This document shows positions 45,680 through 64,000 of a DNA stretch of 64,000 nucleotides, one piece after another. Each line of letters starts with the position of its first letter. The first letter of the stretch is position 1. The position numbers and the translations under genes are program-made. The notes below the pieces were generated by a model, which saw only the letters and a list, made by a program, of their open reading frames with translations, was not told where the DNA came from and ran no database searches. This DNA is from Pleurocapsa sp. PCC 7319 (GTDB lineage: Bacteria; Cyanobacteriota; Cyanobacteriia; Cyanobacteriales; Xenococcaceae), in the NCBI RefSeq assembly GCF_000332195.1, contig NZ_KB235919.1:211038-275037 (forward strand). The letters run 5' to 3'.

Positions 45680-46087
45680 TTAACTTACCAAGAATGCACC
45701 ACACCAAGGTCGACCACAATTACCAGGTCTACATCCCATTACAGTAATTAAATCTGTTATCGAGTTGTTGTTTTGATCGTTAAATTTGAGAGTCAATGTT
45801 TTTTCGTCGGGAAGAAAGCTTCCTAGTTCAGTTTCAATGATAGCTGGATTCATAAATTTTTCTGTTAAAGCATTTTTAAACTCTTTAACAGAACTTGTTT
45901 GAGATGAAGTTCTTTTCTTTTCAGTTGCTGATGGTACTGGACAAGTTGCAGCAGCTTGAGAATTTTCACCAAAATACATCTTAAGTTTAACTTCTGCATC
46001 TTCTGGTAAGCCGAACTTAGTTAACATATCTCTGACTTTAAATTCAGAGATTGCTTTTGTGAGACATGTTTCCAATTCTGAACTCAT
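45680..46087 (-). CDS. Hypothetical protein with Cys-rich C-terminus (135 aa)
   Basis: The start at 46087 (MSSELETCLTKAISEF) is supported by AGGAGA 8-13 bp upstream; a longer frame from 46156 lacks this. The body is helical with a Ser/Thr linker, and the protein ends MGCRPGNCGRPWCGAFLVS with three closely spaced cysteines. No signal peptide. Located upstream of TpsA 2 on the same strand. Like the 42497 gene, it combines a conserved-looking N-terminal part with a short cysteine-bearing tail. Function unknown. Confidence 0.55.
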   Translation of the reverse strand: MSSELETCLTKAISEFKVRDMLTKFGLPEDAEVKLKMYFGENSQAAATCPVPSATEKKRTSSQTSSVKEFKNALTEKFMNPAIIETELGSFLPDEKTLTLKFNDQNNNSITDLITVMGCRPGNCGRPWCGAFLVS

Positions 46088-46373
46088 GATTGTGTTCTCC
46101 TCTTGATAGTAAAATTTAGTACTTGATTTTTGATTGGCGATCGCTATAAAGAGCAAGAATTTAAAATCTCGCTTATGTTAAATAGCTTAAATAAGCTATA
46201 GGCACCAGGATCTGAAAATATGCACCAGACTTTGTCGGAAATAGACCAAAAGTCGGTCTATGTTCCTCATTAGAAAAAGATTTTGTTTATCTTAAGTGAT
46301 AAAAATATTAAACGCGATCAGCCCTTCGGGCATGGCTTCACTTTCCACGTAATTAAAATATGAGTAAAAAAAT

Positions 46374-53313: not shown

Positions 53314-53949
53314 TCACTTGCCTTTCTGAACAGCTTTCAGTAACGTTGTTAACATTAAGTAAGAAGAAGTTGCGCCAGGGTCTTGATGTCCGACACTTCT
53401 TTCTCCTAAATAGCTAGCTCGTCCTTTTCTGGCAATTAAAGGAATCGTTTTTTTCATTCCTTCTTCAGCAGCATTAACTGCTTTTTGCAAGCCTTCAACC
53501 ACAGAATTATTATCAGCCAGACTTTGTTGGAAAGCATCGACAGCAGGAGATAAAGCATCGATCATTGTCTTATCTTCCAACTGAGCTTTTCCTCGGTAAA
53601 TAACTCCTTCTAAACCTGCTTGTAATAACTTGACTAATTCCTCTGGTGTTAACTCCTCTTTTTGGGCAGCAACAGCACTAGCTTTGAGAAAAAATGTCCC
53701 ATACAGTGGACCACTTGCTCCCCCAACGGTAGAGATTAAAGTCATACTTACAGTTTTCAAAATGGTACCAATATCTTGATCGATAACCGTAGGTAACTTT
53801 TCGCTTACTTTTTGAAAACCTCGATTCATATTAATCCCATGATCTGCATCGCCAATAGCTGCATCTAATTCCGTCAAATAGTCTTTTTTTTCGGCAATAA
53901 CAGCAGTAAAACCATTTATCCAGTCAATAATTTGTTGTTGGCTGACCAT
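53314..53949 (-). CDS. dhaL: Dihydroxyacetone kinase subunit DhaL
   Basis: 211 aa, normal length. Nucleotide-binding signature AIGDADHGINMNRGF, GGASGPLYGTFFLKAS and the late VGHQDPGATSS. DhaL holds the ADP cofactor and passes phosphate to dihydroxyacetone bound on DhaK. It is 9 bp after dhaK. The phosphotransferase subunit DhaM is not in the window. Confidence 0.95.
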   Translation of the reverse strand: MVSQQQIIDWINGFTAVIAEKKDYLTELDAAIGDADHGINMNRGFQKVSEKLPTVIDQDIGTILKTVSMTLISTVGGASGPLYGTFFLKASAVAAQKEELTPEELVKLLQAGLEGVIYRGKAQLEDKTMIDALSPAVDAFQQSLADNNSVVEGLQKAVNAAEEGMKKTIPLIARKGRASYLGERSVGHQDPGATSSYLMLTTLLKAVQKGK

Positions 53950-53958
53950 AATTAGAGA

Positions 53959-55032
53959 TTATATTCCCCAACGAAAAGATATAGTTTTAACAGGAGCATC
54001 CCAGAGTTTAACTAATTCATCATCCATCTTAAGCAACGTAATCGAACATCCTTGCATTTCTAAAGATGTGATATAACTTCCCACTAAGTTACGGACAATT
54101 TTCAAGCCTTTTTTCTCACAAATTTCTGCTAATTTTCGATAGACAATATACAACTCAGGAATCGGAGTTCCTCCCATGCCATTGACAAAAGCCAAGACTG
54201 AATCTCCAGATGCTAAGGTCGGATCGATTAATTCTAAATCTGTCCATTGTTCCTTATCTTCATCCCACTCTCTTAAAATTCTTTTGTAAGCAGAATCTTC
54301 AATAATAGAAAGAGCCATCATTTCGGTAATTTCATTGGCAGTTTTCCAGGGTAATCTTTCTCGACCTGGTTCACCATGAATCCCAATACCAAATTCTATT
54401 TCATTGTCACCTAAATCAAATAGAGGAGTACCTTTTTGGGGAGTAATACAGGAAGTGAGTGCCATTCCGATACTGCGACCATTAAGATTAACTTTACGAG
54501 TAAGTTCGGCAATTTTGGTTAAGTCATATTTAGCTTCCGCTGCCGCCCCGCAAATTTTAGCGGCTAATACAGAAGTTCCCACTCCTCTTCGTCCCTGAGT
54601 GTAAAGACTATCTTTAACAGCAACATCATCATCAATGATAATATTTAGCACTCTAATTCCTTCTGAAATCGCTAGTTCCGCAGCCATTTCATAGTTCATT
54701 ACATCCCCACTGTAGTTATTAACTAGATATAGGACTCCTGAACCAGAATTAACCATTTTTGCTGCTTCTAACATCTGATCTGGTGTCGGTGCAGTAAAAA
54801 CTTCACCAGGACAAGCTGCATCTAGCATTCCATAACCAACACAGCCATTGTATAAAGGTTCATGTCCACTTCCGCTACCAGACACGATCGCGACTTTATC
54901 TTGAATAGGTGCGTCGGCACGATAAATAAAGTTAGGCTCAAAATGAACTTTAATAATGTCAGGATGGGCAACAGCCATACCTGCTAGGTTTTCTTGAACA
55001 ACATCTTCAGGGTTATTAATTAATTTTTTCAT
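53959..55032 (-). CDS. dhaK: Dihydroxyacetone kinase subunit DhaK
   Basis: About 357 aa from the ATG at 55032 (MKKLINNPEDVVQENLAGM, the family start); an ATG at 55053 would add seven residues. SGSGSGHEPLYNGCVGYGM carries the substrate-contacting His, and GIGIHGEPGRERLP the histidine that covalently holds dihydroxyacetone. Together with DhaL it phosphorylates dihydroxyacetone from glycerol metabolism. Confidence 0.95.
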   Translation of the reverse strand: MKKLINNPEDVVQENLAGMAVAHPDIIKVHFEPNFIYRADAPIQDKVAIVSGSGSGHEPLYNGCVGYGMLDAACPGEVFTAPTPDQMLEAAKMVNSGSGVLYLVNNYSGDVMNYEMAAELAISEGIRVLNIIIDDDVAVKDSLYTQGRRGVGTSVLAAKICGAAAEAKYDLTKIAELTRKVNLNGRSIGMALTSCITPQKGTPLFDLGDNEIEFGIGIHGEPGRERLPWKTANEITEMMALSIIEDSAYKRILREWDEDKEQWTDLELIDPTLASGDSVLAFVNGMGGTPIPELYIVYRKLAEICEKKGLKIVRNLVGSYITSLEMQGCSITLLKMDDELVKLWDAPVKTISFRWGI

Positions 55033-55387
55033 TAGATATTCCCCGAGCTTCAAACTGCTTCTAATTGAAGTCTAAAATTAATTTTGCCGCGCAAAACAGT
55101 TGTGTTGCAAAAAGTGACAATAAAGGGCTTCGCCCTAGCTATTAGCTATTAGCTATTAGCTGTTAGCTGTTAGCTCCAATCAAATAGAGTCTTAAACTTT
55201 TCTTACGACAATAGCTTTAACAAGGACAAAGGCTTAAGCTGCATGTACTCTCGCAACGCTTTGTCGCGCTACCTGATTGTGGACACCGCCAAGTCAGTGG
55301 GGTCTTTACCCAATCTACGCTTTTAGTAGTGAATTTAAAGCTAAAAGCTAAAGGCTAAAGGCTAAAAGCTTTTTGATAATTCTATTT
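55033..55387. repeat. Intergenic hairpin, AGCTATT heptamers and dispersed repeat
   Basis: AGGGC-TTC-GCCCT hairpin at 55124-55136 is followed by tandem TAGCTAT/TAGCTGT heptamers to about 55177. A dispersed-repeat block with GCATGTACTC and GTGGACACCGCC lies at ~55226-55310, and AAAGCTAA heptamers at 55336-55373. No gene. Confidence 0.6.
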
Positions 55388-56983
55388 CTATCGTTTGCTT
55401 CTAGAAATTGGGATCGCTTTCAAAGCTTTACGATCAATTTTGCTATTAATGGTTAAAGGTAAGTTGTCTAAAAAATGGATTTCTGGAGGAATCATATAAT
55501 TGGGCATAGTTTCTCCGCAAAAAAGACGAATTTCCTGAGCTGTAGGAACTGACTTATTTTCTTCTACGACTAAAAAAGCAGCCAGTGTAGTATTTTCTTG
55601 ATTATTCTGGGCGATCGCTGCTACTTGGGCAATGCGTGGATGTTCTCTGAGTCGGCGTTCGATTTCTTCTAATTCGACGCGATTGCCCATAATTTTTACT
55701 TGTAGATCGCGACGACCTGCTAGGTAAAGTTCTCCCTTTGACCCCTTATAGGCCAAATCTCCAGTACGAAATACTTTCTCTTCAGATAGAGGGTTAAGAG
55801 GATTGGGAATCAAAGCCTTATTAGTTATCTCAGGATTTCGCCAGTATCCAGAAAAGAGATTTGCCCCCCGTAAATAAATTTCTCCAATCTGGTCTGGTTG
55901 GTTAATTTCATTTTGCTCTTCATCTAATAAAAGCATTTCTGCACCAGGGTGAGCAAAACCAATGGAGAGATTTTTGGTGTCTGGAAATAAAGGATTGGGG
56001 ACTTCTGTAAAAGAACAGGCGATCGATTCTGATTGTCCAAAACAGTTGATAATTCTGACTTGAGGCAGTAGAGATCGGAGTTGAATTATATCGGCGATCG
56101 CAAATGATTCTCCAGCAAATAAAGTAGTTTTTAGGTGTTGTAGTTTGGCTATATCTTGAGCAGCATAGTGCAATAATAATTTCCAAATTGAGGGGACACA
56201 GTTGAGCTGAGTAATTTGATGTCGATTTATATAGCGTAATAATTTTGGGGGAATTAAAGTAAGCTTGCGAGGTATTTGAACTAAAGTCGCTCCACTTCCT
56301 AAAGCTAAACCCATGTCTAGTAAGGAAAAGTCAAATTGTAACGGTGCGATAGTACCTATTCTTGCTGGTGATGATAATTGACAGTAATTTACTAAAGCTC
56401 TAAAAAAAGCAATTACGGCGCGATGGGTCATCATAATCCCCTTGGGATTACCAGTAGTTCCTGAAGTAAAAATGATATAAGCTAAGTCTGATTCTAGAAC
56501 CGGTCTTCTACGAGAACGAAATTCTGTAGGTAATGTATCTGGGATGTGGAGAGAATTACCATCTAAAAATCCTAGAAGTATTTGATCGGAATTAGAAATA
56601 TTTTGTTCATTAGATGATTCCTGAATATGTAGCTTGGCTTCTGTAGTGACTACAATTTCTGCTAATCTTCCTGGTGGAGTTTCTGGACTGACTGGAACAA
56701 ATACTAAACCTAACAGAGAACAGGCAATTATTAAGGCGATCGCTTGGGGACAGGATTCTAACTCTAAAATTATTCTATCTCCAGCAGCTAAACCGCGATC
56801 GTCTAGAATATCTGCATAGGTATGAGAGTAGTTAAATAAGTCTTGATAACTCCATTGACAGTTAGCAGAGATAATGGCGATCGCATTTGGAGAATTTTGA
56901 GCGTATTGCAGTAAATATTGATGCAGTAAAACAGGTTGCCAATTGTGGGGATAAGTACCTGGATAAATCTTACAATCGTTCAT
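55388..56983 (-). CDS. Stand-alone amino-acid adenylation enzyme
   Basis: 531 aa. NRPS-type adenylation motifs: AYIIFTSGTTGNPKGIMMT (A3), FGQSESIACSF (A5), GEIYLRGANLFSGYW, RTGDLAYKGSKGELYLAGR (A7-A8) and catalytic Lys in LPLTINSKIDRKAL (A10). No carrier domain attached; the ACP at 58305 is the obvious partner. The pocket segment reads LQFDFSLLDMGLALGSGATL, so the usual Asp is present but the substrate cannot be predicted. Its ATG shares the CATG tetranucleotide with the divergent nucleotidyltransferase start. A DltA-like role is an alternative. Confidence 0.82.
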   Translation of the reverse strand: MNDCKIYPGTYPHNWQPVLLHQYLLQYAQNSPNAIAIISANCQWSYQDLFNYSHTYADILDDRGLAAGDRIILELESCPQAIALIIACSLLGLVFVPVSPETPPGRLAEIVVTTEAKLHIQESSNEQNISNSDQILLGFLDGNSLHIPDTLPTEFRSRRRPVLESDLAYIIFTSGTTGNPKGIMMTHRAVIAFFRALVNYCQLSSPARIGTIAPLQFDFSLLDMGLALGSGATLVQIPRKLTLIPPKLLRYINRHQITQLNCVPSIWKLLLHYAAQDIAKLQHLKTTLFAGESFAIADIIQLRSLLPQVRIINCFGQSESIACSFTEVPNPLFPDTKNLSIGFAHPGAEMLLLDEEQNEINQPDQIGEIYLRGANLFSGYWRNPEITNKALIPNPLNPLSEEKVFRTGDLAYKGSKGELYLAGRRDLQVKIMGNRVELEEIERRLREHPRIAQVAAIAQNNQENTTLAAFLVVEENKSVPTAQEIRLFCGETMPNYMIPPEIHFLDNLPLTINSKIDRKALKAIPISRSKR

Positions 56984-58148
56984 GAATAAAAATATGGATA
57001 ATAAAAAGTTAGCAAGCGATCGTGGCTCTAGGAAATTACCAAATTTAGCTTTTGGTAAAGAATGGGCATTATTAGAGTTAGTTACTCTTGGTTTAAATTC
57101 AGCTAGCGAACAAGAAATGTTTGCCGAATTAATTAGTGACCAAGATTTGGATTGGCAAGAATTACTAAAACAAGCAACAAGGCATAAAATTACTTGTCTT
57201 CTAGCATTTTATATAATTACTAATAACTTGTCTGAAGTCATTACTTTAGATCTAAAACAGCAGTTAGAAACTATTTTGTTTTTTAACAGACACAAGATTA
57301 AGATATATCGCAGCAAAGCGGCAGAAATTATTCGAGCTTTAACTAAAAATAAAATTAAATTTGTAGGCACAAAAGGTATTTCTTTAGAATCGACACTATA
57401 TCAGGGTAATGGTAATCGTACCTTGTCAGATATTGATTTTATGATTTTGCCTAATGATAGAAAAGTTGTTAGTGAAATTTTGGCAGATTTAGGATATCAG
57501 ATGGGTACTTTTGAGCCAAAAACTGGTACTATCAAACCCCATAGTCGAGAAATGATGATTAACTACAAGTTAAATCCAGATCATTTACCTGCTCATATTT
57601 TATTAATTGATGATGTTATCGTTCCTTTTATCGAAGTAGATATTGCTAATAGTTTGACTTGGACTTTGTCTCCTTTTCAAATTCCTGTTGAGGTTGCCTT
57701 GGAGAATATTGTTTATCAACCTATTCCAGAAATAAAAGATATTAGTTTACCTTCTTTTGCACCTCAATTTCAGTTTATTTTTACGATTCTTCATTTATTT
57801 AAAGAAGCCTGGATTGAACTTACTTTAGATATGAATGGAAAAGATGTATCTTTAAGTAAATTTAGTGATGTAGTAAGAATTTGGAGTAGACATCAAAATG
57901 AACTTCAGAACGAAGAGTTTGTAAAAATACTTGAGCAGTTTGATCTTATACAACCAGTAGTTTGGGTATTGGAACATTTAGATCGGACATTGCAAACAAA
58001 CATTATTTCTAGTTTGGGTTTAGAAGGGAAAGTTACAGAAGAATGGTTGTCTAGTGCGGCTCCAAGTGGAACAAAAGCACGACTATGGCGAGGAACGATG
58101 AGAAAACGTCTTTTTACTCAAGATCGTCGTCAACTTTTTAGACAGTAA
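56982..58148 (+). CDS. Nucleotidyltransferase family protein (RiPP-cluster type)
   Basis: 388 aa. The hallmark of this family (PF14907-like) is IKFVGTKGISLESTLYQGNG then RTLSDIDFMI, containing the metal-binding D-x-D. Helical N- and C-terminal parts. Proteins of this family occur in lasso-peptide and other RiPP clusters, where their modification is mostly undefined. The first ATG overlaps the divergent adenylation start; an in-frame ATG at 56994 is an alternative. No clear Shine-Dalgarno for either. Confidence 0.82.
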   Translation: MNKNMDNKKLASDRGSRKLPNLAFGKEWALLELVTLGLNSASEQEMFAELISDQDLDWQELLKQATRHKITCLLAFYIITNNLSEVITLDLKQQLETILFFNRHKIKIYRSKAAEIIRALTKNKIKFVGTKGISLESTLYQGNGNRTLSDIDFMILPNDRKVVSEILADLGYQMGTFEPKTGTIKPHSREMMINYKLNPDHLPAHILLIDDVIVPFIEVDIANSLTWTLSPFQIPVEVALENIVYQPIPEIKDISLPSFAPQFQFIFTILHLFKEAWIELTLDMNGKDVSLSKFSDVVRIWSRHQNELQNEEFVKILEQFDLIQPVVWVLEHLDRTLQTNIISSLGLEGKVTEEWLSSAAPSGTKARLWRGTMRKRLFTQDRRQLFRQ

Positions 58149-58304
58149 AGCGGCAAAGCCGCAGCTATTAGCTATCAGCTATTAGCTTTTTGATTGATTT
58201 ACTAAAGGAGTGAAAATTATAAAATCATACCTCTATTCAGCAACGCCATTTAAGTAAACTTTAGAGCTTAAAGCTTAAAGCTTAGAGCTTAGAGCTTTAA
58301 GCTT
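58147..58304. repeat. Hairpin and AGCTATT/AGCTTAA heptamer arrays
   Basis: GCGGC-AAA-GCCGC hairpin directly after the nucleotidyltransferase stop, then AGCTATT heptamers (58159-58187) and AGCTTAA/AGCTTAG heptamers (58262-58304) reaching the ACP stop. Confidence 0.6.
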
Positions 58305-58565
58305 TCAAATAGCAATTTTCAATTTTTCTGATACTATATCGACAATATCAGAAATCGCTCTAAAGCTTTCATAGCTTATTTCATCCATATCAAATTCAAA
58401 ACCAAAGACTTCTTCTAGTCCTAAAACTAAGGAGACGGCATTGAGCGAATTAAGACCTAGACTAAACAATTCTACGTTATCGGTTAGTTCACTGGTAGAA
58501 ATATCTGGCAAATTATCTGATATCAATTGGCGAATTTTTTGTTTAATAGTTTCTATTTGATTCAT
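58305..58565 (-). CDS. Acyl/peptidyl carrier protein
   Basis: 86 aa. Phosphopantetheine attachment serine in FSLGLNSLNAVSLVLGLEEV; the usual D-S-L reads N-S-L, which still keeps the serine. The remaining helices (FDMDEISYESFRAISDIVDIV) are typical. Likely loaded by the adenylation enzyme at 55388. It sits 11 bp after the B2-like protease gene in the RiPP operon, an unusual place for a carrier protein. Confidence 0.88.
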   Translation of the reverse strand: MNQIETIKQKIRQLISDNLPDISTSELTDNVELFSLGLNSLNAVSLVLGLEEVFGFEFDMDEISYESFRAISDIVDIVSEKLKIAI

Positions 58566-58576
58566 CTGATTTCCTC

Positions 58577-59056
58577 CTATTTATTCCGTAAAAGTATAAA
58601 TTTGCTATACTTGTAGTACTCCCATTCTGGGAGTGACAGGACATTATAATATTTAGTCATATTACCTATACCACCGATTACAGTTTTGCCTCGACTTTCT
58701 ACCCAAGCATGGGCAATAAATTGACCTTGGTTATCTTTACTAATGCCGATACGTAATTGATTAGGATAATTTTGTTTTGATAGTATTACTTGAGCTGCTA
58801 TTGCTCTAGCAAGACATTTAACTCCAGGTATATAGGGGCTAACTATCGTTATTGCCCAAATAATTTTATAGATCGAGACTTGTTTATTTTGTTTGGGTTG
58901 AGCTATTTTAGCTAGTAGATTACGTAAGGTTTGAAACTGAATAAATTGTAATCCTACTCTAATTAAAATTAGTAGTATTGCTACTTTCAGTAAAAGAAAG
59001 CGATCGCTCCAATTATCCTTGACTATTTTATACAGTTGTTCTACTGTCTTGAACAT
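58577..59056 (-). CDS. Lasso peptide biosynthesis B2 protein
   Basis: 159 aa. Transglutaminase-like cysteine protease of the B2 family (PF13471-like): catalytic Cys in GVKCLARAIAAQVIL, then LRIGISKDNQGQFIAHAWVES with the His and following GKTVIGG. It removes the leader peptide of the precursor in lasso biosynthesis. An N-terminal extension (~60 aa) contains a hydrophobic stretch (FLLLKVAILLILIRVG). Its start overlaps the end of the kinase gene by 29 bp. Confidence 0.88.
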   Translation of the reverse strand: MFKTVEQLYKIVKDNWSDRFLLLKVAILLILIRVGLQFIQFQTLRNLLAKIAQPKQNKQVSIYKIIWAITIVSPYIPGVKCLARAIAAQVILSKQNYPNQLRIGISKDNQGQFIAHAWVESRGKTVIGGIGNMTKYYNVLSLPEWEYYKYSKFILLRNK

Positions 59057-59969
59057 TTTTAAGAGAATTAACTTTGTTTTCTATAGTGGTAATTACCTGA
59101 TTGATGATGCTGAAATCTTGAGGACGTTCTAACTTGAAAGCAGGAACACTTTTTAATAATTGAATACATTGACTAAAGTGTTTTTCTAAAGCCTCATTCT
59201 GTAACAATTGAGCTGGACAAGGAAAAAATTTAGTCAAGGTCATAAATGCTTCCGTGCCCGTCATTGGAGTCATTCTTATTTGATTTCCGATATCTAACGC
59301 AAATATCCCCGCTAATGGACAGGGTTCTGAGGTAAATTTTTCTGGTTGTCGAATAACTCTTTTTCGTGAACCAGGAAACAAAGGAGATAAGTTAGAAATA
59401 TTAAAATCTAAACCTTTGATGGTTGCAGGCCAAATTTTTATCTGCGGAAAAGCAGGATAAACAGTGGGAATATCTTGAATATTATTTATCGCAACCATGT
59501 CATCAGCTAATACAGGATAGCCATGTTTGGCAAATGCTGCCGCCATAGTAGATTTTCCAGCACCTGGAGCACCAACAATAACTACAGCATAATCCCCAAT
59601 TTTTACAGCACTAGCATGAAGCAGAAAAAAGCCTCTTTGATAGAGAATCAAACCTAATGCTTCACTTAAGATATACAAATTGAGGAGTTCTGGCTCGATA
59701 TCATCAGAATCTGGATCTACAGTTAAATTATTGCCATCTTGGGCTAAAAAAGATCCTACTCCAGACCATTGCAAGTAAGCTTCTTGACTATTACTTTTAA
59801 CTCCAAAGTAAGCTTGATTGCCTTGACGGAAAATAGAAGTTGATTCTAATGCTGGTAAGCCAATGGTATCTTTTTTAAGATATATATCTGCGTTGGGGTT
59901 TCCTTTTGGTAGTACTGGGAGAAAAAAGTCGGAGATAATGTTCAGACCATAGGCTTGATGAGTGAACAT
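59028..59969 (-). CDS. HprK-like peptide kinase
   Basis: 313 aa. Walker A in VIVGAPGAGKSTMAAAF and LADDMVAI downstream, as in the HPr kinase/phosphorylase fold. N-terminal beta domain instead of a full HprK N-terminus. In paeninodin-type lasso clusters an HprK homologue phosphorylates the precursor's C-terminal serine; the Ser-rich tail of the precursor at 60342 fits such a role. Confidence 0.85.
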   Translation of the reverse strand: MFTHQAYGLNIISDFFLPVLPKGNPNADIYLKKDTIGLPALESTSIFRQGNQAYFGVKSNSQEAYLQWSGVGSFLAQDGNNLTVDPDSDDIEPELLNLYILSEALGLILYQRGFFLLHASAVKIGDYAVVIVGAPGAGKSTMAAAFAKHGYPVLADDMVAINNIQDIPTVYPAFPQIKIWPATIKGLDFNISNLSPLFPGSRKRVIRQPEKFTSEPCPLAGIFALDIGNQIRMTPMTGTEAFMTLTKFFPCPAQLLQNEALEKHFSQCIQLLKSVPAFKLERPQDFSIINQVITTIENKVNSLKNVQDSRTTV

Positions 59970-60059
59970 AATTTATAGCTGTAATATACTAAATAAGGTA
60001 AGCAGAGTTACCAACAAAGAGCTTAAGATGATTTAGCTGCTTACCTTACATTTTTCTGA

Positions 60060-60321
60060 TATAGCAATACGAACTTTTATTAGGACACTCATTACTCGAT
60101 ACTCGTTACTCACCCTTCGGGAGGTGCCCTAAAGGACTTCCTTCGGTCGCGCATTCCCTTGCCCAGATAACGCTCCTGGGTAAACGCCTTACGTCGACGC
60201 GGTGAAGCAGTGCGGTCTTGGGGGTTTCCCCCATGAGCAACTGCTGAATCCTTTAGGGGGTCGCACCTTTACTTACGAGCAATCAAATAAACTTGTCCTA
60301 ACGTAACTTTGTACGGCTATA
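60060..60321. mobile_element. MITE-like element, long copy with nested insertion
   Basis: Ends match those of the 31106-31211 element (TATAGCAATACGAAC... and ...GTACGGCTATA). A G+C-rich block of about 155 bp (60113-60268), with CCCTTCGGGAGGTGCCC and TTGGGGGTTTCCCCCATG motifs, replaces the centre. It lies in the RiPP operon between the kinase and the precursor gene. Confidence 0.6.
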
Positions 60322-60341
60322 CATGGCGATCGCTTTAAAGA

Positions 60342-60701
60342 TTAGAAATTATCTCTGCTATCCCAAACGGTAGGATCGGATTGATAATCTCTAGATTCAC
60401 TATCTGCCGAATCTCTCGTTGACCAAAGATCTGGTTCATGATCTCCATCACTATCATAGGCATCTAACACAGATCCATTGGCTGTCTCGACTGTCTTCCC
60501 TATCTTCTCTACAGGGTACAATCTGTCATTTACTACTACAGCTTCTAGATCTTTATCTCTATTAATTAAAATTTCATCAGAATTATTGTCACCTGTGATA
60601 TCAGTAAAATCATTTAAGCTGCCATTGTTAGCTTTTGTTATATGTTGTATTTTACCTAAATTCTTAATAGTTGGTAGTTCATAAGTTTCTTTGATATTCA
60701 T
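60342..60701 (-). CDS. Putative lasso-type RiPP precursor peptide (119 aa)
   Basis: The N-terminus carries the lasso leader signature Y-x2-P-x-L/I-x3-G-x5-T with exact spacing: Y7, P10, I12, G16 and T22 in YELPTIKNLGKIQHIT. The remainder is acidic, Ser/Asp-rich and ends with three [ST]RD-type units (LWSTRDS, SESRDY, TVWDSRDNF). Most lasso precursors are ~40-60 aa, so this is about twice as long. Flanked by a PqqD-like RRE and HprK/B2 genes. If cleavage is two residues after T22, the core would start ANNGSLND, with Asp at position 8 as possible ring acceptor; this is inference. Confidence 0.7.
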   Translation of the reverse strand: MNIKETYELPTIKNLGKIQHITKANNGSLNDFTDITGDNNSDEILINRDKDLEAVVVNDRLYPVEKIGKTVETANGSVLDAYDSDGDHEPDLWSTRDSADSESRDYQSDPTVWDSRDNF

Positions 60702-60753
60702 TATGTCTCCTCCGTTATTATTTTTTATTCTTGATGCTAAAACTTGATTGGTT

Positions 60754-61053
60754 TCAATTGAACCTGATATTAGCTGGATTTCTTATTTCAACTAATCCCT
60801 CATGTTCTAATTCTTCTAGAAAAGATTTCAAATCGCGATCGCATTGTTCTAAATCAACATCATATTTATTTAGAATAATACTTTTAATTTCACTAACAGC
60901 TTTAGGTTCCTGTAGTAAGTGCCAAATAGTAGCTCCAACATGATTTAAGCCATAATATTCCTCAGACTTAAGATCGAGAATTACCACTTCTTTATTTAAG
61001 TTAGAATAACGTTTATCTTTGGCTGTTACTACGATACTCATTTCTTCTATCAT
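60754..61053 (-). CDS. PqqD-like RiPP recognition element (lasso B1)
   Basis: 99 aa; start at 61053 or the nearby ATG at 61041 (MSIVVTAKDKRY). NKEVVILDLKSEEYYGLNHV, GATIWHLLQE and LKSFLEELEHEGLVEI match the winged-helix PqqD fold that binds the precursor leader. First gene of the minus-strand RiPP operon, 52 bp upstream of the precursor gene. Confidence 0.9.
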   Translation of the reverse strand: MIEEMSIVVTAKDKRYSNLNKEVVILDLKSEEYYGLNHVGATIWHLLQEPKAVSEIKSIILNKYDVDLEQCDRDLKSFLEELEHEGLVEIRNPANIRFN

Positions 61054-61699
61054 TAGCTTAAGATCTTATTTGGACAGATCAGGATAATTACGGATATACA
61101 GAACAAGGACTCTACATTTAGTAGTTATGCATGGTTTTTAGTTAAAACAAGAAGCTTGATTCGCTAATAATACAGAATAATGTCATTCAATTTACACCAT
61201 ATGCTAGCTTGTTCTCTAAATATGTAAATCAGTATTTTCAACTAAATAATTTTAACGATTAAAAATGCTAAATAAGTATTTACACGTAAATATAACTATT
61301 TATTAATTATCTTCAATATCTTAATTCTTAAGTATATTAAAATACTTAAAATTAATACGCAATAAAATTTTTTGATCTAAGGTGATCGACGTATGAATTT
61401 TGATTTGCTAAAAGCTTCTGACTGAGGATCTAAGTTGAATATAAAAAATTCTAGATAGTTTAAAGCTAAGTAGTGAAAGAGGAAATAGAGAGTACTCTGA
61501 ACTTTTTAAGCACTATTATTTCAAAATTGACAGACTGGCACAGATTTAGATCTATTTAAATCTTGTAGTGTTTGTAAGCATTTAGATTAATTGGCTACAC
61601 AGCTTTAATAAAGCTAAAAGCTAACCGCGAAGCGGTTTAATAGGCTAGTTTTTTGGGTTTTGATGTTTTTATAAATTAAGGTTGGCTGAAATAACAATC
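61054..61699. other. Divergent promoter region of the RiPP and NRPS genes
   Basis: 646 bp, strongly A+T-rich, no supported ORF. Near the NRPS start it holds AAAGCTAA units and the hairpin AACCGC-GAA-GCGGTT (61623-61637), related to the hairpins at 21964, 55124 and 58147. Confidence 0.5.
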
Positions 61700-64000
61700 A
61701 TGCAAATATCTAAGGTTCATTCTTCAAAAAATCCGGCAAATTTTTGGCTAACTGTTAGAAAAACACTAATTAGACAGCGTGAAGCACCTATCATCAAACA
61801 AATTTCACGCGCTCAAAATTTACCACTCTCTTTTGCTCAAGAACGTCTCTGGTTTATTAACCAATTAGAGCCAAACAGTATTGGCTATCAATTTAGTCAA
61901 GGATATTATCTAGTTAGTCCTTTAGATATCTCTGCTTTAGAAAAAAGTCTCACGGAAATCCAACGCCGCCACGAAACACTAAGAACTACTTTCGCTATCA
62001 AAAAAGGAACACCAGTTCAAATCATAGCTTCTTCCATACCTTATAAATTACCCATAATAGACCTATTAAACCTTTCAGAAGCTGAACTTAATTCGGAAAT
62101 TAAAAGATTATTTAGTGAAGAATCGCAAAAACCTTTTAATTTAGCCCAAGAACCCTCCTGGCGAGTAAAATTGTTACGGATTAAAGCAGAAAAATATGTA
62201 ATGCTGCTATCAATGCACCACATTGTCTATGATGGCTGGTGTTTAAGTCTCTTTTTTCGGGAATTAGTCAAGCTTTACCAAGCTTTTAATTACAATAAAT
62301 CTTCTCCATTACCTGAACTGCCAATTCAATATGCTGATTTTGCCTACTGGCAGAGAGAATGGCTTAAAGATAACGTCTTAAAATCTCAACTAACTTATTG
62401 GAAAACAAAATTAGGTGGTTCCTTACCCATCTTACAACTACCAACAGATCGTCCTCGTCCAGCAATTCAAACCTATAGAGGTGCATCTCAATATCTCGCT
62501 TTTCCTCAAGATTTAACCAATTCAATTAAATCTCTAACTCAGCAAGAATGTACAACTCTGTTCGTAACTCTTTTAACAGCATTTAAAGTCTTACTTTATC
62601 GCTATACGGGACAGAAAGATATTATTGTGGGGACTCCCGTAGCCAATCGCAATCGAGCTGAAATTCAAGAAATCATCGGATTTTTTGCGAATACATTAGC
62701 ATTAAGAACTGACTTATCAGGAAATCCTACTTTCAGACAGTTATTAAATCGAGTTCGTCAAGGGCAACAAGAAGCCTTAGCCCATCAAGATTTACCCTTT
62801 GAGAAACTGATAGCGGAAATACAACCTGAAAGAGATTTAAGTCGTAATCCCCTGTTCCAAGTAATGTTGGTTTTCACTAACACTCCTACTTCACTGGCAG
62901 CATCAGAACTATCAGATTTGATTGTGCGAACGATTGGTATTCCCAAAAAAACAGCCAAATTCGATCTCACTTTCTTCCTAACAGATACACCTCAAGGATT
63001 AAGAGGAATATTAGAATACCCCACTGACTTATTTGATGCTAGTACTATTACCAGATTGTTAGAGCATTTTCAGATTTTACTAGAAGGGATAGTTGCCAAT
63101 CCCGATCGCCCTATATCTGAATTACCGCTCCTGGGAAGAATGGAGCGTCAGCAATTATTGATAGATTGGAACAATACCAAGACTGAGTATGCTCAAGATT
63201 TATCCATCCAGCAACTTTTTGAAACCCAAGTAGCCAAAACTCCCAAGGCGATCGCAGTCAGATTTCAAGATCAACAGCTTACCTACCAACAACTCAATAA
63301 CCGTGCTAATCAACTAGCTCGTTATCTGCAAAAACTAGGAGTAAAGCCAGAAAGATTAGTTGGGATATTTGTCGAACGTTCCCTCGATGGAATAGTAGGT
63401 ATATTAGGAATCATCAAAGCTGGTGCAGCTTATGTTCCCTTAGATCCATCTTATCCTCAAGAACGTCTGAGTTTTATACTCAAGGATGCTCAAATAAGTA
63501 TCTTGGTAACTCAAAAGAATCTAATTGCTAAGTTACCAGCTCATTCTTGCCATCTAGTTTGTTTAGATGAGGATTGGACTGAGATTGAACGAGAACTGCC
63601 AGAAAATGTATCAACTGGAATTCTATCTGACAACCTAGCTTATATAATTTATACTTCTGGCTCGACAGGAAAACCTAAAGGAGTTGCCTTAGAACATCGA
63701 ACTCTGACTAATCTTATCTCTTGGCAATTAGAAAATACGACAATATCTCAAACTGATAAAACATTACAATTTGCTCCCATCAGCTTTGATGTGTCTTTGC
63801 AAGAAATCTGGGCAACTTTGTGTAGCGGGGGAACCTTAGTTCTAATCACAACCGAATGGCGACGAGATACGAATGTCTTACTAGAGCTGCTAGAACAAGA
63901 AAAGATCGACAGAATCTTTTTACCTTTTGTTGCCCTCCAACAACTAGCAGAAGTAGCTCAAAGTAGAGAATTTGTTCCCACCAATCTACGGGAAATTATT
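61700..64000 (+). CDS. Non-ribosomal peptide synthetase, C-A... (3' end outside window)
   Basis: 767 codons from the ATG at 61700 to the window end, frame open. Condensation domain (~40-470) with C1 SFAQERLWFINQLE, catalytic MHHIVYDGW (HHxxxDG at 173-179), and IGFFANTLALRTDL. Adenylation domain from ~500 with LVGIFVERS and IIYTSGSTGKPKGVALEH (A3). The pocket residues seen so far read D, V, Q (SFDVSLQEIW) and F (FLPFVAL), which resembles proline-type codes; the rest lies outside. A leading C domain implies an upstream donor or an N-acylating starter. The nearby stand-alone A enzyme and ACP might supply it. Confidence 0.95.
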   Translation, partial: MQISKVHSSKNPANFWLTVRKTLIRQREAPIIKQISRAQNLPLSFAQERLWFINQLEPNSIGYQFSQGYYLVSPLDISALEKSLTEIQRRHETLRTTFAIKKGTPVQIIASSIPYKLPIIDLLNLSEAELNSEIKRLFSEESQKPFNLAQEPSWRVKLLRIKAEKYVMLLSMHHIVYDGWCLSLFFRELVKLYQAFNYNKSSPLPELPIQYADFAYWQREWLKDNVLKSQLTYWKTKLGGSLPILQLPTDRPRPAIQTYRGASQYLAFPQDLTNSIKSLTQQECTTLFVTLLTAFKVLLYRYTGQKDIIVGTPVANRNRAEIQEIIGFFANTLALRTDLSGNPTFRQLLNRVRQGQQEALAHQDLPFEKLIAEIQPERDLSRNPLFQVMLVFTNTPTSLAASELSDLIVRTIGIPKKTAKFDLTFFLTDTPQGLRGILEYPTDLFDASTITRLLEHFQILLEGIVANPDRPISELPLLGRMERQQLLIDWNNTKTEYAQDLSIQQLFETQVAKTPKAIAVRFQDQQLTYQQLNNRANQLARYLQKLGVKPERLVGIFVERSLDGIVGILGIIKAGAAYVPLDPSYPQERLSFILKDAQISILVTQKNLIAKLPAHSCHLVCLDEDWTEIERELPENVSTGILSDNLAYIIYTSGSTGKPKGVALEHRTLTNLISWQLENTTISQTDKTLQFAPISFDVSLQEIWATLCSGGTLVLITTEWRRDTNVLLELLEQEKIDRIFLPFVALQQLAEVAQSREFVPTNLREII

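Follow-up and report, generated by a model that had tools for sequence, protein, structure and literature searches.

What does a lasso-type gene cluster make when it has no cyclase to close the ring, but does have a stand-alone adenylation (A) enzyme and a stand-alone acyl carrier protein (ACP)? The question is raised by positions 55388 to 61053 of a 64,000-nucleotide stretch of Pleurocapsa sp. PCC 7319 (assembly GCF_000332195.1, contig NZ_KB235919.1, positions 211,038 to 275,037 of the forward strand), hereafter the window. The answer that we favor, and hold to be probable though well short of certain, is that the cluster belongs to a phospho-lasso subfamily of cyanobacteria, some clusters of which carry an extra module of A enzyme, ACP, and nucleotidyltransferase (NT), that it has lost its cyclase, and that it makes a linear phosphopeptide, perhaps a β-aminoacylated one.

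Read from right to left, the minus strand carries B1, a stand-alone recognition element (RRE) for ribosomally synthesized and post-translationally modified peptides (RiPPs) of the PqqD family (99 aa, 60754..61053; PF05402, 2.8e-18, 66 bits), then the precursor (119 aa, 60342..60701), an HprK-like peptide kinase (313 aa, 59028..59969) with His-Lys-Asp-Asp kept as judged by eye, the B2 leader peptidase (Transglut_core3, 159 aa, 58577..59056; Cys and His kept, again by eye), and the ACP (86 aa, with an LGLNSL site, 58305..58565; PF00550, 3.7e-11, 44 bits). There follow the NT on the plus strand (388 aa, 56982..58148; PF14907, 103 bits) and, back on the minus strand, the A enzyme (531 aa, 55388..56983; PF00501, 248 bits). 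In family scans B1, B2, NT, ACP, and A lie above their cut-offs, B2 with 99 bits against a cut-off of 33 for lasso_biosyn_B2 (NF033537) and as the sole B2 match in the genome; the kinase (29.8 against 33.3 bits in Pfam) and the precursor lie below the curated cut-offs. The original prediction had named RRE, precursor, kinase, B2, and NT as companions of a lasso cluster, with an A enzyme and an ACP among them. All are in place, RRE and B2 being those expected of a lasso pathway, and family matches and relatives agree. Two corrections are due: the A enzyme has its closest kin among β-amino-acid enzymes, and the NRPS gene beyond B1 runs past the end of the window.

The precursor likewise has the features of a lasso precursor. 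Its leader holds YELPTIKNLGKIQHITK, with YELPTI matching the lasso motif [Y/W]xxPx[L/V/I/A/F/Y] and a Thr at -2, the penultimate position; the core, 96 aa from A24, is acidic (net -16) and begins A-N-N-G-S-L-N-D; and GGAGGAGAC upstream of the start is a good ribosome-binding site. The ring acceptor of a lasso peptide is an Asp or Glu at core position 7-9, and with D8 (codon from 60611) the acceptor is therefore still present. The match to the cyanobacterial lasso leader model NF033528 is weak (E 0.017, 15 bits, cut-off 33), and an internal repeat in the core, taken minus its first residue, is marginal (12 of 500 shuffles scored as high). Ten precursors of the subfamily, the window's included, share a [YW]xxPx[LI]xx[YL]G leader, with G4-S5 in all ten and D8 in nine. 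These rows (the window's, a Xenococcus fusion, four from genome G593, three from G655, and one from G490, all in clusters of the kinase clade described below) were picked by eye and with a motif expression fixing the leader and the first core residue, not G4, S5, or D8, so that part of the likeness is owed to selection. Left out were five rows of other lasso clusters, of which four fail the expression and one fits it without G4 and D8, together with one empty placeholder and a second G490 candidate beside another cyclase.

The conserved S5 (codon from 60620) is a candidate for the kinase target. The precursor of a linear polyphosphorylated peptide (LPP) is phosphorylated at core S3 (PMC13381572) and paeninodin at its C-terminal Ser (PMC9266682). 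The latter cannot be the target here, because the window precursor ends in Phe. In Xenococcus sp. PCC 7305 an RRE and a lasso precursor are fused in one 190-aa protein (L070:5226-5798). The clusters at L102:2671-4838 and L104:9132-11071 hold several lasso precursors each, four in the first and three in the second, and these have acidic tails; beside them stands a cupin/JmjC-like hydroxylase (a label given by eye), a 64% homologue of which also adjoins the Xenococcus kinase.

No cyclase was found between 53 kb and the neighboring nonribosomal peptide synthetase (NRPS) gene, as had been predicted, and none was found in the 7.39 Mb genome either. Searched by tblastn with two subfamily cyclases, the window and the adjoining 19.9 kb give no match below E 0.71 and no cyclase remnants. 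The 674-aa cyclase of G427, a genome of another family, retrieves a cyclase from Xenococcus at E 5e-232 and from G015 at E 5e-125; in the Pleurocapsa genome its sole match at E <= 0.001 is a 602-aa asparagine-synthetase-like protein (E 3e-6). Pfam Asn_synthase likewise marks two places only: this protein, on contig C7, and another of 230 aa, which we take to be QueC. As an orphan cyclase the 602-aa protein (L001/L014) was rejected: it scores 53 bits where the cut-off for cyanobacterial lasso cyclases is 525, and a leader-motif scan of its 19.9 kb gave no plausible precursor as judged by eye. Genes resembling those for methyltransferases, transposases, and glycosyltransferases surround it, again by eye. 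We take the cyclase as absent from the genome, which is 99.99% complete in 10 contigs, a cyclase on a replicon outside the assembly being conceivable.

This absence is most simply read as a loss, and not as replacement of the cyclase by adenylation, because relatives have A and ACP together with a cyclase. When 388 genomes of the order were scanned and three candidates in each were scored, the A enzyme was found at E <= 1e-85 in four: the window's, Xenococcus, G427, and, truncated, Okeania sp. SIO3B5 (G622). In the three intact cases, from three genera, ACP, NT, and B2 lie beside A in three different gene orders, and a scan of the class with the G427 A enzyme returns one of 388 genomes, the window's own. 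The comparison of gene order in cyanobacterial relatives that the original prediction proposed thus places A and ACP with lasso-type genes. In G427 one 13.9 kb contig holds B1-B2-cyclase-HprK-ACP-A plus a convergent NT. Within the window's family a B2 match occurs in 10 of 27 genomes, and nine of the ten non-window B2 loci read have a cyclase-like gene (one through the G427 query, one by eye). The tenth is that of Xenococcus sp. PCC 7305 (G025), where NT-B2-ACP-A (63, 51, 75, and 74% identical to the window's) stand together; the 19.9 kb read there contain neither B1 nor a kinase or cyclase. The remaining parts lie elsewhere in that genome: contig C61 has the B1-precursor fusion, a cyclase 55% identical to that of G427, a hydroxylase-sulfotransferase, a second sulfotransferase, and further genes, and contig C200 ends in the kinase (51%). 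Because the end of C200 overlaps that of C61 exactly, over 125 bases, the Xenococcus cyclase and kinase are probably neighbors.

Other relatives have parts of the same set. G593 has the ACP beside NT at a contig end and B2-cyclase-HprK on another contig, and no A was found in it. G593 and G655 both have B2, cyclase, HprK, and more than one precursor, next to which lies a hydroxylase-like gene. G490 has B1, B2-like frames, cyclase, HprK, and a precursor; in G420 the kinase is present, and 19.9 kb gave no match to a lasso gene. Of eight genomes tested, the ACP was found in four (the window's, Xenococcus, G427, and G593) and not in G622, G655, G420, or G490; NT orthologs (E <= 1e-20) occur in 5 of 378 genomes of the order, namely the same four and, shortened, G622. 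NT, ACP, and A largely travel together. One small observation concerns G427, where a frame upstream of the cyclase start (L059:7156-7245) resembles the end of B1 (E 0.71) and may be a remnant of a second B1.

Sequence kinship points the same way for several of the genes. The window kinase is 54% identical to that of the full lasso cluster of G427, as opposed to 28-33% for five other lasso-cluster kinases (28-34% when the G427 kinase is compared as well), and a kinase tree places it with 98/100 support in a group of seven (window, G427, Xenococcus, G593, G655, G490, and G420). The NT is 63% identical to that of Xenococcus and 59% to that of G427, the range among the A/ACP clusters compared being 57-63%, as against 18-24% for the NTs of two other lasso clusters. 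For the ACP the figures are 74-75% (Xenococcus), 52% (G427), and 45% (G593).

The closest solved structures indicate what the A enzyme may activate. Entry 5jjq matches best (E 8e-132); 7dq5/6m01 and others follow at about 1e-125 and 5jjp at 8e-120, and an α-type NRPS domain comes after these at E 2e-92. These solved entries are IdnL1, HitB, and CmiS6, all β-aminoacyl-ACP synthetases, and enzymes of the β-type have a bulky residue after the amino-binding Asp (F231 in VinN) and a pocket loop shorter by one residue than that of α-type A domains (PMC11253843). All 13 enzymes of this A type that were aligned have Phe after the amino-binding Asp, and none of the 11 NRPS A domains does. By eye, I, M, or V stands two residues after the motif Glu in all 13, whereas the 11 α-type domains have V, I, or T three residues after it, a difference that would fit a shorter loop. 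A shortened loop in the window's A enzyme, first drawn from a pairwise look, was withdrawn after wider alignment. Four residues after the Asp, at what we infer to be published position 220, the pocket has Leu, as does IdnL1, and a small aliphatic β-amino acid is the predicted substrate, which the A enzyme would probably load onto the ACP.

The pathway may then be imagined as follows. B1 would bind the YxxPxI leader, the kinase would phosphorylate a core serine, S5 being the candidate, and B2 would cleave after TK; with no cyclase to act on it, the product would remain linear. The A enzyme would activate its small aliphatic β-amino acid and load the ACP, the NT might further modify the phosphate or the carried group, and the aminoacyl group would end up on the peptide, an option that the original prediction had raised, or be handed to the divergent NRPS. 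That a β-amino acid from the carrier, or a unit started with it and finished by the NRPS, decorates the phosphopeptide, and that the cyclase-free linear form is functional, is a more tentative proposal, on the doubtful side of possible.

Two groups of phosphopeptides provide the nearest precedents. Phosphorylated lasso peptides of the paeninodin/pseudomycoidin type share B1, B2, an HprK-like kinase, NT, and a YxxP leader with the window (PMC9266682); the window differs in having no cyclase found, an ACP and A enzyme in addition, and a 96-aa core. The LPPs share with it an RRE, HprK, NT, and the lack of a cyclase, and their precursors, of 35-200 aa, also have a lasso-like leader motif, but they are reported from Bacillota with a SipW-like signal peptidase, whereas the window keeps B2 and adds A and ACP (PMC13381572). 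The window thus has the RRE, HprK (below the Pfam cut-off, as noted), and NT of an LPP cluster without a cyclase; in place of a SipW-like peptidase and a YxxPxVLxHQ leader it has B2 and a different leader, and by eye no signal peptidase is present among the cluster's reading frames. The asparagine-synthetase-like cyclase expected of a lasso pathway was found neither in the interval nor in the genome, and relatives have it; the name lasso peptide is therefore out of place for the product. Judged by its genes the cluster is of lasso type; its product, as predicted from the genes, most resembles a phosphorylated linear lasso analog such as the LPPs.

For the A enzyme and ACP the likeness is to the β-aminoacyl-ACP synthetases of macrolactam biosynthesis (VinN/VinL, IdnL1, CmiS6, HitB/HitD), which share the A family, the pocket Phe, and a stand-alone ACP, and for which the acceptor is a polyketide synthase (PMC11284099, PMC11253843). 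Unlike those pathways, the window cluster has no polyketide synthase, protecting A enzyme, or acyltransferase that we could see.

Several observations weigh against the reading of a linear phosphopeptide with a carrier-borne addition. No transferase that might move the aminoacyl group to the peptide was identified, and no precursor was recognized on the 13.9 kb contig of G427. The first structure of the β-type, that of VinN (3wvn), is matched only distantly (E 1.5e-44), several α-type domains scoring better, and the aligner puts no gap at the pocket loop, so that the alignment does not resolve the published shortening. B1 kinship does not group the A/ACP clusters: window B1 is 52% identical to that of G583, 51% to G655, 49% to Xenococcus, and 45% to G427, and since G655 and G583 are about as close as Xenococcus and G427, B1 was withdrawn as support for the grouping. 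B2 groups these clusters only in part, Xenococcus B2 being 46% identical to that of G655 and 44% to that of G427; in the kinase tree, kinases with and without A/ACP are not separated, and a single origin of the A/ACP module is not resolved. By eye, no clear ribosome-binding site lies upstream of B1, HprK, B2, A, or NT. A dispersed repeat resembling a miniature inverted-repeat transposable element (60052..60326, no strand assigned) sits inside the operon between precursor and HprK. In Okeania sp. SIO3B5, finally, a truncated NT and a truncated A lie side by side (L053:9645-10624), apparent remnants of the module.

The repeat, the scarcity of clear ribosome-binding sites, and the Okeania remnants, together with the missing cyclase, are what one would expect if the cluster were decaying, the cyclase gone, the other genes on their way out, and no product made. 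The repeat has 72 matches in its own genome (itself included), the best other one at 99% over 263 bases, many being only the two 53-base end pieces. Yet the remaining reading frames are intact, catalytic residues are retained as judged by eye, the precursor and the ACP have good ribosome-binding sites, and the precursor retains its leader and ring signatures; we therefore consider decay unlikely, if a rival to be taken seriously. Repeats may have had a part in the history of the locus without it: the Xenococcus NT-B2-ACP-A island is flanked by two copies (L016 643-777 and 12527-12649) of another dispersed repeat, which also makes up the ends of C61 and C200, and the cyclase may plausibly have been lost through rearrangement at repeats.

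A further alternative, which the original prediction had raised, is a hybrid RiPP-NRPS pathway, in which the ACP-borne β-aminoacyl group would be the donor for the condensation (C) domain of the NRPS and the thioesterase (TE) would attach the unit to the lasso-type peptide. The NRPS gene begins at 61682 on the plus strand, divergent from B1, and is cut by the window end (61682..64000); in full it encodes 2664 aa with C-A-PCP-TE domains (PCP, peptidyl carrier protein), many tetratricopeptide repeats (TPRs), and a family 2 glycosyltransferase. In G427, too, an NRPS-like protein is divergent from B1: 1406 aa, with a C domain (34-482), at 501 only a C-terminal piece of an A domain, then PCP, TE, and TPRs. 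Because only that piece remains, the G427 PCP would need loading in trans. Elsewhere in the Pleurocapsa genome the next-closest ACP (43%) is grouped with an AMP ligase and a C-domain enzyme. The arrangement beside B1 in both genomes is suggestive and lends the idea of a hybrid slight support; orthology of the two proteins is not supported, their C domains not being each other's closest. The window C domain is 56% identical to Xenococcus C230 and 48% to another NRPS of its own genome, as opposed to 44% to the G427 neighbor. Around each of the three most similar Xenococcus NRPSs 19-20 kb were read, and no B1, B2, HprK, NT, or cyclase lies there; NRPS-type matches are numerous in these genomes. 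The NRPS is a candidate member of the pathway, and the hybrid as a whole seems to us rather improbable. A different carrier-type pathway lies in Xenococcus at L084:5612-14703, where an ACP and glycosyltransferase-like and sulfotransferase-like genes (by eye) are followed by a protein matching residues 9-1046 of the G427 C-(A remnant)-PCP-TE-TPR protein at 46%.

Might the A enzyme and ACP simply be unrelated neighbors of the lasso-type genes? Homologs of A at 43-48% do occur in ten other loci, and the six read (L043-L048) match no B1, B2, HprK, or NT; polyketide-synthase-like frames lie beside the A gene in four of the five actinomycete loci (by eye), and the Paenibacillus locus has two A enzymes and two carrier proteins. 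Against chance stand the joint occurrence of NT, B2, ACP, and A in three genera in different orders and the occurrence of NT, ACP, and A in the same few genomes, which make mere coincidence very unlikely. Relatives of the ACP, found in 6 of 388 genomes of the class, belong to another pathway, judging from their company at the six loci read besides the window's own: an AMP ligase and a C-domain enzyme in all six, and DAHP-synthase-like and chorismate-lyase-like genes in five (by eye). One such set is in the Pleurocapsa genome itself (C4:142967-149414, or L032:4968-11415), outside the window, with a second stand-alone AMP ligase, an ACP 43% identical to the window's, a C-domain enzyme, and DAHP-synthase-like and chorismate-lyase-like proteins; it looks like an aryl-acid carrier pathway, and similar sets occur in G133, G155, G363, G378, and partly G227.

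Last, the suggestion that the ring is closed through adenylation by the A enzyme in place of the cyclase, prompted by the absence of a cyclase here, is very hard to maintain, since a cyclase co-occurs with the A/ACP set in relatives (inside the cluster in G427, on another contig with the B1-precursor fusion in Xenococcus), the finding that the original prediction had itself named as telling against it, and since, among solved structures, those most closely related to the A enzyme are amino-acid:ACP ligases. A role for B2 as the transferase, by analogy with AdmF of andrimid, was likewise dropped for lack of evidence.

The carrier-protein module, then, is the new element of this cluster. Among the matches listed in a search of the open-licence literature, by titles and the starts of abstracts, there is no lasso cluster with an adenylation enzyme and a carrier protein. 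In goadvionin-type hybrids a carrier-bound acyl group is joined to a ribosomal peptide; these are a different peptide class, and no GNAT transferase was recognized among the window cluster genes. If A and ACP do act on the peptide, the tailoring of a ribosomal peptide would be combined with the activation of a β-amino acid on a carrier, strategies that are normally separate, and a new peptide modification would result. The relatives form a natural series, with clusters in which a cyclase occurs with A/ACP, those with a cyclase in which A/ACP were not found, and those with A/ACP in which no cyclase was found. With this series one can ask what becomes of a lasso pathway after cyclase loss, and whether LPP-like linear phosphopeptides arise repeatedly in this way.

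Two further features of the surroundings may be recorded. Beyond the A enzyme lies a dihydroxyacetone-kinase pair (53314-55053). At 45680-46156 a 158-aa protein with the end CRPGNCGRPWCGAFLVS, by eye a possible Cys-rich peptide precursor, adjoins two haemagglutinin-like genes.

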